Shown piece after piece: positions 28,578 through 31,094 of a DNA stretch of 39,854 bases. The DNA comes from Candidatus Microgenomates bacterium (lineage in GTDB: Bacteria > Patescibacteriota > Microgenomatia > UBA1406 > GWC2-37-13). The notes beneath the pieces are model-generated. The model saw only the letters and a list, made by a program, of their open reading frames with translations, was not told the DNA's origin and did not search any database. The position numbers were made by a program, and so were the translations under genes. The first letter of the stretch is position 1. Each line of letters opens with the position of its first letter. The stretch is from contig JAHFKS010000007.1 of NCBI GenBank assembly GCA_023245215.1, positions 1 through 39,854 of the forward strand. The letters run 5' to 3'.

Positions 28578-29285
28578 ATGAGAAAATTTGAGATGTTTCA
28601 GAAAAACACCCTTTCAAAAACAATTATTATTTTTATCGTTCTTTTGTTGACGACCGTAATTCTGGTTTCCACCGTTGGTTTGAAATTACTTCTTAATTAT
28701 TCGGTTTTTATCGCCAATTTCTTTTCCAAGAAAACATCTACGACTCTCAATAAAACCAGCGACGTTTACGGTTCAATCAGCATTGACAATATACCTACAG
28801 CAACTAACAGCGCTGCGATTGTTGTCTCTGGCTCGGTCGTAAACTACGATAAAATTCAGTTTTTCATAAACGATGAAAAAGTCAAAGAAATAGATTCTCT
28901 CGCGAGCGATACCTTTTCCGAAGAAATCGGCGACTTAACAAAAGGAGACAATAAAGTTTATATAAAAGCCCTGACTAAAGACGGAAACCAAAGCAAAACA
29001 ACCGTCTCCTACCCGGTTTTGTTCAAGGACGAAAAACCGAAGCTGGATATTTCCGAACCAAAAGACGGCGACAAGACTTCAAAGACAGAAATTACTATCA
29101 AAGGCTCGACGGACAAAGAAGTATTTGTAAAAATCAACGACTTGCCAATTACCGTCGATGCCAACGGCAACTTTCAAACCAGCGTCAGGTTAAAAGATGG
29201 AGACAACGTCATTAATATTATCGCTTCCGATGAAGCCGGCAACTTCGAAACTAAGACTTTGAAGGTGACTTATCAGAAAGATTAG
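28578..29285 (+). CDS. Membrane-anchored Ig-like domain protein
   Basis: A 235-residue protein with one N-terminal helix (about 14-40) and two extracellular beta-sandwich domains: about 63-145 (IPTATNSAAIVVSGSVVNYDKI, in pieces) and about 150-233, where KPKLDISEPKDGD, TEITIKGSTDKEVFVKIND and GDNVINIIASDEAGN match the glucodextranase-B/Big-like repeat family. No enzyme domain is present, so an adhesive or spacer role on the surface is inferred. The ATG at 28578 lies one base after tRNA-Thr; an alternative start is ATG 28593 (MFQKNTLSKT). No promoter fits between tRNA and gene. The 3' end overlaps the convergent polymerase gene by 35 bases. Confidence 0.8.
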   Translation: MRKFEMFQKNTLSKTIIIFIVLLLTTVILVSTVGLKLLLNYSVFIANFFSKKTSTTLNKTSDVYGSISIDNIPTATNSAAIVVSGSVVNYDKIQFFINDEKVKEIDSLASDTFSEEIGDLTKGDNKVYIKALTKDGNQSKTTVSYPVLFKDEKPKLDISEPKDGDKTSKTEITIKGSTDKEVFVKINDLPITVDANGNFQTSVRLKDGDNVINIIASDEAGNFETKTLKVTYQKD

Positions 29286-30348
29286 TAAAAAGCAGGAAAA
29301 GGATAAACGGGTGCAAAAATACGTTGTCAAAAAGAGAGGCTACTCCGACCAAAAGCAGAATTGTCCGCATTGACTGACTATTTTTCCAAATAAGTCTAAT
29401 GAGTCCAATTAGACCTATTAGTCCAATCAACCCTGCCGATACCAATATAGTCAGGTAGCTCGAGCTGAAAGAAGCGCCGGCGTTGGACTTGGGAATATTA
29501 CGAACATACCTCAACCGGTCATAACCATAACCCAGAATAGGCTTTTTTATAAAAAGCTCGATTCCCTCTTGATAGTCTTTAAGCCTTGAAGCTATGGAAA
29601 AAGTCCTTGCAAGATTGACGCCTTCTCCAGACGGCTTGGGAGCAATGATAATTAAAAATAATAAAATAATTAAATAAAGAAATACTTTCTTGAGCTTTTT
29701 TTTTGTAAAAAACAAATATATTAAAGAGACTGCTAAAGACAAATAAATACTACGGGAGAAACTTAAGGCGATAAAAATCAAGTAAATAATTTTTACATAC
29801 CAAAGGCTGCTTGAAAGAAATATCATTCCGTAAATCACGCCGGCGATTGCCGTATCAAAAAAAACCCCGAAGGTCCTGTAAAGATGAGGGTCCCATCCAA
29901 GATAAAATAAGTTCCTTAAATCAGGGTATAAAAAATATTGGGTGATTGTAGAAGAAATAGTGGCAATAGTTATTATTAAAACGCCTTTTTTTACAATATT
30001 TTTTGCATTTTTATTTTCATCTGACCAATAAGTCAGATAAGCCCAATAAACACCATACAAAATCAGTCTTAAAAGATATAATAATCCGACTATATTTTGA
30101 AATCGAGAATAGCCGCCGATTCCGTTTATCAGTGAAATGAAAAGAATAGCAAAAAAAATAAAGAGGCTTTTGTATTTTGTCCAAAAAGATTGCAGGGGAG
30201 CAAAACGGTATTTAACGGCTAAAGTTAAAATAAATAACGTTAAAACAGCTTCGTAAAGGTAGATATTTACCTGTCCTCCATAAAGCGAAAGTCTTCCCAG
30301 CTGCCCAAAAGAAAAGAAAAACGCAAGAAGATAGAAAAGAATGTTCAC
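29251..30348 (-). CDS. O-antigen ligase/polymerase-like membrane protein (Wzy/WaaL type)
   Basis: A 365-residue protein with about ten hydrophobic helices. The signature KPILGYGYDRLRYV, a large outside loop before the last helices, is typical of the O-antigen ligase/polymerase family, which joins polysaccharide units at the outer face of the membrane. Such proteins have little sequence conservation, so polymerase and ligase cannot be told apart. A late helix is built of a 9-base tandem repeat (GLI GLI GLI GLI RLI; see 29386-29432). It is the last gene of the polysaccharide operon, overlapping the gene before by four bases (ATGA). Confidence 0.8.
   Translation of the reverse strand: MNILFYLLAFFFSFGQLGRLSLYGGQVNIYLYEAVLTLFILTLAVKYRFAPLQSFWTKYKSLFIFFAILFISLINGIGGYSRFQNIVGLLYLLRLILYGVYWAYLTYWSDENKNAKNIVKKGVLIITIATISSTITQYFLYPDLRNLFYLGWDPHLYRTFGVFFDTAIAGVIYGMIFLSSSLWYVKIIYLIFIALSFSRSIYLSLAVSLIYLFFTKKKLKKVFLYLIILLFLIIIAPKPSGEGVNLARTFSIASRLKDYQEGIELFIKKPILGYGYDRLRYVRNIPKSNAGASFSSSYLTILVSAGLIGLIGLIGLIRLIWKNSQSMRTILLLVGVASLFDNVFLHPFILFLLFTNLSDKSPSKS
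29386..29432 (-). repeat. 9-base tandem repeat coding for GLI/RLI in the polymerase gene
   Basis: On the minus strand five consecutive 9-base units run ttgatt-type GGx-CTx-ATx, coding GLI, GLI, GLI, GLI, RLI, and end with tggaaaaat (WKN). Units differ only at silent or near-silent positions. A very similar array with the same 3' flank (CT-ATT-xGG-AAA-AAT) lies in the glycosyltransferase gene at 30686-30735. Confidence 0.85.
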
Positions 30349-31094
30349 TTTTGTTGTAACTGGTAAAGCTTCGCTCTAACCAAAAAAGAATGAAAACTCA
30401 TCAAAAAGGCATAAGCAAATCCCGCTGCTCCATCTAAAAATCCCAAATTTAAAACATAGTTGTAAATAAATTTAAAAAACGGAAAAAAAACAATTTCCAA
30501 AACGCCGCAAGTTTTTCCGTGATTATAAAGTTCTTCTGCCCGTAAAGAAGAATAAACGTTTACTTTAACGATAAATTCTTTTAAAGTCGGATGAGGATAG
30601 TGGTTGATAAAACTTTTAAGGTGACCGACATTTTTTGCCGTGTGAAAAACTTCATGAACATTGCCCAGCCACTTGCCAGAATTTTTCCTAATGAGTCTGA
30701 TGAGTCCAATTTGTCTGATTTGTCTGATCTCTCCATACATAAGTTCTTTATTCCAAAAAAAATCCCGCCTTCTCAGAAAATAAGCGTCATTATCGCTCTC
30801 TTTAAGATTTACAATTTCTTTTCTTAATTCAGGAGAAATTTGTTCATCGGCATCAACGAATAAAATCCAATCAAAATTTGCTTTGCTCATTCCAAAATTC
30901 CTTTGTCCGGCAAAATCACCATTCAGTTTTCTTTGAAAAAGTTTGTACTTTAAAACTTTATGGACTAACACTATTGTTTTATCTGTTGAGAAATCATCAA
31001 CTACAATTATTTCGTTGCAAAAAGCGACTGACTTCAAACATTTGCTGATATTTTTTTCCTCGTTTTTTGTCAAAATAACTGCCGATAGTTTCAT
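30345..31094 (-). CDS. Glycosyltransferase family 2 (WaaE/KdtX-like)
   Basis: A 249-residue GT-A fold enzyme: N-terminal MKLSAVILTKNEEKNISKCL, the nucleotide-sugar-binding VVDDFSTDKT (about 31-40) and DADEQ at 81-85 as the DxD metal site. The later NVHEVFH is the conserved acceptor-side segment of WaaE-type transferases. The sugar cannot be told from sequence. Between residues 122 and 136 the protein carries RQI/GLI/RLI triplets from a 9-base repeat, at a place where relatives usually have one short RLF-type strand, so it may be a small insertion. It overlaps the polymerase gene by four bases. Confidence 0.88.
   Translation of the reverse strand: MKLSAVILTKNEEKNISKCLKSVAFCNEIIVVDDFSTDKTIVLVHKVLKYKLFQRKLNGDFAGQRNFGMSKANFDWILFVDADEQISPELRKEIVNLKESDNDAYFLRRRDFFWNKELMYGEIRQIRQIGLIRLIRKNSGKWLGNVHEVFHTAKNVGHLKSFINHYPHPTLKEFIVKVNVYSSLRAEELYNHGKTCGVLEIVFFPFFKFIYNYVLNLGFLDGAAGFAYAFLMSFHSFLVRAKLYQLQQK
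30686..30735 (-). repeat. 9-base tandem repeat coding for RQI/GLI/RLI in the glycosyltransferase gene
   Basis: On the minus strand five 9-base units code RQI, RQI, GLI, RLI with a partial first unit (EI), then aggaaaaat (RKN). Same period, similar unit and same 3' flank as the array at 29386-29432, 1.3 kb away in an unrelated gene. Confidence 0.85.

Follow-up and report, generated by a model that had tools for sequence, protein, structure and literature searches.

Strand-symmetric 9-bp tandem arrays within genes and at competence promoters of a Microgenomates genus suggest a DNA signal overlying the protein code

Two unrelated, neighbouring genes of a Candidatus Microgenomates bacterium contain the same 9-base tandem repeat, which raises the question of how one short repeat came to be present in both, and whether it matters as protein or as DNA. 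The genes are located in a window of 39,854 nucleotides, i.e. the whole stretch of DNA that was analysed, which is contig C34 of the 819-kb assembly G000 (~91% complete). A sequence-only reading had assigned the repeats to a dispersed element that can enter coding sequence, on the grounds that unit, orientation, frame and 3′ flank are common to both. Both repeats are real (Table 1), they share their frame, and xGG AAA AAT follows in both cases. Translation of the coding strand yields ...GLIGLIGLIGLIRLI-WKN for array 1 and EIRQIRQIGLIRLI-RKN for array 2. The units, again read on the coding strand, are GGACTAATA, GGTCTAATT, GGACTCATT and AGACTTATT in P1, the Wzy_C-family membrane protein, and AGACAAATC, AGACAAATT, GGACTCATC and AGACTCATT in P2, the GT2 glycosyltransferase.

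Table 1. Positions of the two arrays, their 3′ flanks and their host genes in the window.
Feature	Position	Strand	Description
Array 1 (9-bp)	29390..29429	.	~4.4 units ATnRGWCYn, score 27.1; encodes GLIGLIGLIGLIRLI near the C-terminus of the Wzy_C protein
Array 2 (9-bp)	30688..30728	.	~4.5 units, score 22.7; encodes IRQIRQIGLIRLI in the GT2 glycosyltransferase
Host gene 1 (P1)	29251..30348	-	Wzy_C, O-antigen ligase/polymerase family (PF04932), 365 aa
Host gene 2 (P2)	30345..31094	-	GT2 glycosyltransferase (PF00535), 249 aa
3′ flank of array 1, TGG-AAA-AAT	29378..29389	-	residues W-K-N, protein-specific, outside the array
3′ flank of array 2, AGG-AAA-AAT	30676..30687	-	R-K-N within the motif RL(I/V)RKxxG, outside the array

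The period of nine bases stands, and the unit is better written as 5′-ATnRGWCYn-3′, which at period 9 is its own reverse complement, i.e. the arrays are strand-symmetric and palindromic. Scoring of the whole window with this degenerate motif revealed exactly two arrays, the sole places with a score >14, and no array exceeded this value in order-2 Markov controls or in the reversed window sequence. TRF detects only array 2, because the units vary at positions 3, 4, 6, 8 and 9. Single units are not enriched in the window (7 observed, 6.9 expected) and only arrays are in excess, so that the whole array appears to be what matters; an enrichment of arrays without one of single units is as cooperativity predicts. 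The common flank is not part of the repeat, because it was not found after the ~21 further arrays in G000 and its residues are largely kept in orthologues without an array, e.g. the W-K behind array 1 as IIWKKY in G001 and the R-K-x-x-G behind array 2 as RLVRKGTG in G004.

The two arrays are members of a dispersed, genome-wide set, in agreement with the earlier view that they are not two independent expansions. With a pattern of three units and up to three mismatches, G000 has 52 matches per strand, identical on both strands, versus 1 for the pattern read backwards, and these matches represent ~25 arrays. We read 23 of them in detail: 17 are inside ORFs, and the rest are at gene starts or intergenic. 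The usual array has 4–5 units, and the median length is 41 bp (43 arrays of the genus). The array-bearing ORFs of G000 encode PPDK, LeuRS, CysRS, HisRS (in its last codons), thioredoxin reductase, Fe-hydrogenase, a PHP-type protein (TIGR00375), several glycosyltransferases, PMT-like membrane proteins and a DUF2207 protein, in addition to both window genes. For so small a set, the carriers seem unusually rich in aminoacyl-tRNA synthetases (Leu, Cys, His, Ser; L277 and L287 in G000, L424 in G001, L585 in G014). All three frames are used by the 17 coding arrays (GLI 7, KSN 7, LDQ 3), and thus the frame common to the window arrays is not fixed genome-wide.

An exact two-unit match is present in 14 of 19 relatives of the same genus and in one other family member, and it is missing in 11 order-level relatives and one class-level relative, with a control of 0 in every genome. 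In a scan of the phylum, 30 of 287 genomes were positive, versus 2 for the control. A scan without reversed control retrieved arrays of a similar kind in many other phyla, e.g. Bacteroidota, Lentisphaerota, Planctomycetota and Acidobacteriota; these are mostly intergenic (79 of 137), and we do not claim them as one family with the genus arrays. Some of them form inverted pairs around a short intergenic spacer (L115:1761-1870, L039:2336-2406, L112:1273-1350), and many matches in viral contigs (L147 and others) look like collagen-type GPI coding repeats (GGACCAAT) and are probably unrelated. The genus itself is also rich in other degenerate tandem arrays with periods of 7, 8 and 10, e.g. AAATTGG, AAATTTC and AAAAGTC (L280:2649-2695, L286:2552-2588, L349:1881-1925 and many loci of G001–G017). 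In contrast to the 9-bp arrays, some of these look like genuine insertions, for example in the PHP gene of G009. The repeat strings of the arrays were not found in the open literature searched, and a search for literature on CPR tandem or uptake repeats found nothing.

The orthologues do not bear out the entry of an element into coding sequence. Same-genus orthologues align without gaps through the arrays of P1, P2, PMT and GT1, as do the closest orthologues of GT87 and the closest or most orthologues of DUF2207, and the array scores fade between species. For array 1, P1 orthologues in eight relatives, all ungapped, score 24.8 (G006), 18.5 (G009), 18.4 (G017), 13.7 (G008) and 4.8–6.3 (the others), compared with 27.1 in G000; the GLIGLIGLIGLIRLIWKN of G000 corresponds to GIIGLLGFIAFIKIIWKK in G001. 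For array 2, the score of 22.7 is shared by G008 and declines to 14.7 (G006), 14.3 (G015), 11.6 (G009) and 5.1 (G004), with YGEIRQIRQIGLIRLIRKNSG in G000 (22.7) versus YGETKKTRDKGILRLVRKGTG at the low end (5.1). The absence of gaps together with the graded scores argues for an origin in place, and in the ungapped cases the alignments clearly point to substitution. The arrays of PPDK, LeuRS, CysRS, PHP, Fe-hydrogenase and TrxB are located in linkers, i.e. variable-length loops in which relatives hold other sequence, sometimes other repeats. Linker lengths are within the range of the orthologues (TrxB is 2 residues longer than its shortest orthologues), and these arrays probably also arose in place by substitution. 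The suspicion that the triplets are conserved structural residues is correct in that G-L-I and RLIRK pre-exist in orthologues, but the DNA pattern overlying them does not.

Arrays recur in the same genes. We located 28 arrays in six other genomes, and for most of them the host gene is also a carrier in a different species of the genus. The 5′ end of gyrA has an array in G001, G010, G015 and G017, the PMT-like membrane protein in G000, G001, G009, G010, G014 and G017, GT87 in G000, G015 and G017, PHP in G000, G001 and G017, and RuvA in G015 and G017; P1 and CysRS are also recurrent carriers across species. A gene with a four-helix-bundle suffix has two arrays in each of the four genomes where it was seen (G001, G006, G014, G015), with the first at the gene start and the second in the linker that precedes the suffix domain (TIGR04258; L568, L569, L570, L571). 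For some carriers, the array of another species differs in its frame (HisRS) or in its place in the gene, which is the 5′ end versus the interior (PHP) or shifted (PMT-like, G010), and such changes of place or frame resemble binding-site turnover. Short tandem arrays of 10-mer and 7-mer units, in inverted orientation, stand on either side of two IVP-like four-helix-bundle genes (L373:2983-3480, L456:576-1530). A motif search linked none of the 137 arrays of other phyla to IVP-type four-helix genes, a weak result since this search misses the four-helix-suffix proteins of the genus.

To separate protein and DNA, the protein was held fixed and the codons were redrawn from genome usage, with 2000 recodings for each of the 17 coding arrays. 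For 15 of them the observed score was reached in no more than 6 of the 2000 recodings (P2: 3); the exceptions were P1 (50) and DUF2207 (210). In a comparison of array-bearing orthologues, 8 of 35 motif-fixed third codon bases were changed, versus 50 of 79 motif-degenerate ones and 53% in the sequence flanking the arrays in these genes (p = 6e-5 and 2e-4), and 2 of 18 conserved two-fold codons were changed, versus 37% (p = 0.018). The figures of both tests are somewhat inflated, because the arrays were picked for high score. Taken together, these sequence comparisons indicate constraint on the arrays at the level of DNA. Base use is symmetric about the transcript: W is A in 65 and T in 66 cases, and n3 (A39 C6 G34 T56) is a near-exact mirror of the complement of n9 (A34 C5 G32 T58). 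This symmetry favours a signal in double-stranded DNA, because a signal in RNA or peptide need not give it. Selection at the peptide level was ruled out by the three frames and the recoding test.

Arrays are also present at competence genes. G000 contains comEA, comEC, dprA and comM/yifB, as well as a radC that is cut off at the end of contig C12 and was identified by its ORF start, MSTLHDLPAE, which matches radC of relatives. At comEA(-comEC), dprA, yifB/comM and radC, an array is directly before the gene start or overlaps it, and at all four the array is between a conserved promoter block, TTTTGTAGCRTATAGTCYATAGACA (weaker at dprA), and the start codon. A pattern for this block (L278, L285, L273, L272 in G000; L438-L467 in relatives) matched in eight members of the genus, with 0 for the reversed control, upstream of comEA, dprA, comM, radC and other genes, among them TrpR-like, secreted and transposase-like ones. 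The block points to a probable promoter of a competence regulon throughout the genus. Transposase-like genes that resemble the Y1 family are directly behind the block in G006, G008 and G004 (L441, L442, L444). Read by eye, the four G000 genes have TAGACW and, after 17–18 bp, TCTAAT, which would make a plausible -35/-10 pair of a predicted promoter; TCTAAT is within the array, so that the array covers the spacer, the predicted -10 and the 5′-UTR. G009 has arrays at comEA and radC. Other species have repeats of different sequence in their com leaders, frequently arranged as inverted pairs, and the folding of many of these leaders is far better than that of shuffled sequences. These repeats include TTYATAAAG, GTATAACG and 7-mers, and the inverted pairs form long hairpins that end near the start codon (L474, L496, L503, L476, L479, L491, L501, L469). 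Since the unit is lacking in these 5′-UTRs, hairpin structure and not unit sequence may be conserved there.

The arrays suggest a DNA signal kept on top of the protein code, probably a protein-binding site. The explanation that we prefer, at somewhat below even chances, is that they are genus-level signals in double-stranded DNA, i.e. cooperative binding sites for a putative dimeric protein, used by a competence regulon and scattered in genes. The protein would bind an array cooperatively with one dimer per 9-bp dyad; bound arrays would control the competence promoters, and arrays within genes might mark or regulate further genes by roadblock or chromosome organisation. The arrays occupy whichever frame and codons the encoded protein tolerates. 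The in-gene location of 17 of the 23 studied arrays, most far from promoters, is odd for an operator and counts against this explanation, as does the lack of the unit in the com leaders of other species. A TrpR-family regulator, hinted at by the TrpR-like genes behind the com promoter block, was rejected as the binder because TrpR-family proteins do not track the arrays, being missing from the array-rich G001.

In-frame insertion of a mobile palindromic element, either similar to Rickettsia palindromic elements or mobilised by Y1, would fit the dispersal and palindromic character of the arrays, their presence in coding genes, and the other repeats taken by the PPDK, LeuRS and PHP linkers in relatives. 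It is very improbable, given that length is unchanged in P1, P2, PMT, GT1, GT87 (closest orthologues) and DUF2207 (most orthologues), and that the frame is not fixed; where orthologues are ungapped, insertion is contradicted. Y1_Tnp was found neither in G000 (~91% complete) nor in G001, both array-rich, and a Y1/RAYT transposase (REP/BIME-type mobilisation) was rejected because none was detectable in the array-richest genome, which also counts against a mobile element. A functionless mutational process, i.e. template switching or conversion that involves arrays and array-like sequences and overwrites coding DNA at constant length, would explain the preserved length and why the arrays as a whole are slightly more alike than random ones (27 pairs versus a mean of 10 and a random maximum of 31). 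We regard it as improbable, because radC–comM is the only single array pair whose similarity exceeds that of the closest random pairs, scores between species grade and do not jump, and motif-fixed sites are conserved between array-bearing orthologues. Copying between arrays was rejected, with the exception of those at radC and comM, which are copies. Lastly, G-L-I-rich helices and N/K/S-rich linkers could merely be array-like by coincidence at the protein level, in line with the GLI-type motif of the Wzy_C helix and the RLIRK of the glycosyltransferase in array-free orthologues, and with the two recoding exceptions, P1 and DUF2207. For the whole set this is hardly credible, and is refuted by the census, the three frames, the recoding of the other 15 arrays and the arrays in non-coding 5′-UTRs; individual weak members, such as DUF2207, may nevertheless be of this kind.

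Alternatively, an array hairpin in the mRNA might control translation or stability, above all at competence 5′-UTRs, where folding compared with shuffled sequences gives z-values of -7.7 (comEA of G000), -6.3 (comM of G000) and -8.7 (comM of G006), and where other species keep hairpins made from different inverted repeats. This is quite unlikely: 13 of the 17 in-gene arrays fold like random sequences that obey the motif (P 0.15–1.0; the other four 0.03–0.05), and base use shows complete symmetry relative to the transcript. The hairpin is not supported as the selected feature of coding arrays, most of which fold no better than motif-obeying random sequences. The main rival is a signal similar to DNA uptake sequences (DUS), in which arrays would mark self DNA for natural transformation, build up in place through biased uptake and recombination (molecular drive) and settle where proteins tolerate them. 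The competence genes are present and linked to arrays, and several carriers process DNA (comEA, dprA, comM, radC, ruvA, gyrA). The origin in place, at permissive spots and in all frames, and the strand symmetry are also as expected; known DUS exist as species dialects (PMC3630211), and ComEC-dependent transformation has been demonstrated in Patescibacteria (PMC10633639). Nevertheless, we consider it unlikely, because ~25 arrays in 0.8 Mb contrast with the hundreds to thousands of US motifs in known cases (PMC2346458), there is no enrichment of single units, the return of arrays to a gene in a different place or frame is not expected, and placement in com promoters is precise. The more specific proposal that a genus-wide overlay of cooperative, strand-symmetric arrays serves competence, as a multi-unit self-DNA signal or as a competence-regulator array of a previously undescribed kind, appears unlikely.

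A DNA signal that is strong enough to choose amino acids as well as codons, in proteins such as tRNA synthetases and glycosyltransferases, is rare. The binder, if found, would reveal either a regulator of competence or a code for self DNA in bacteria that are very difficult to cultivate, and the predicted competence-regulon promoter of the genus is directly testable. Annotators should not mistake GLIGLI- or NKSNES-type stretches of these proteins for conserved protein motifs or domains.

Among known systems, the met boxes of MetJ and the omega heptads are tandem cooperative operators with dyad-symmetric units of 7–9 bp that overlap promoters. The arrays share the dyad-symmetric units and the short tandem form at predicted promoters of the G000 com genes; they differ in that most are inside coding genes and that the regulator is putative. 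With Rickettsia palindromic elements (RPEs) and Wolbachia coding palindromes they have in common palindromic DNA that is compatible with the protein in unrelated housekeeping genes of a small genome. RPEs are in-frame insertions of ~150 bp (PMC10969869), whereas the arrays are ~41 bp long, occur in three frames and are not insertions when compared with orthologues. The DNA uptake sequences of Neisseriaceae and Pasteurellaceae are also short, competence-tied motifs in coding sequence, but they are single motifs in high number, in contrast to ~25 multi-unit arrays without an excess of single units. Like the arrays, the tandem repeats of Borgs are present in ORFs and intergenic regions and evolve fast; within ORFs, their units are near-identical copies with a length divisible by three and give amino-acid repeats (PMC9879509), whereas the units described here are degenerate and vary in frame. 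Palindromic amphipathic repeat coding elements (PARCEL) are tandem palindromic coding repeats spread across bacteria as well, with a 75-nt/25-aa repeat that defines a protein domain (PMC2996958), while no protein domain is common to the arrays. The arrays resemble coding palindromes, tandem operators and uptake sequences without fully fitting any of these definitions, and the closest known architecture, by analogy and not by membership, is that of the MetJ-type tandem operators.
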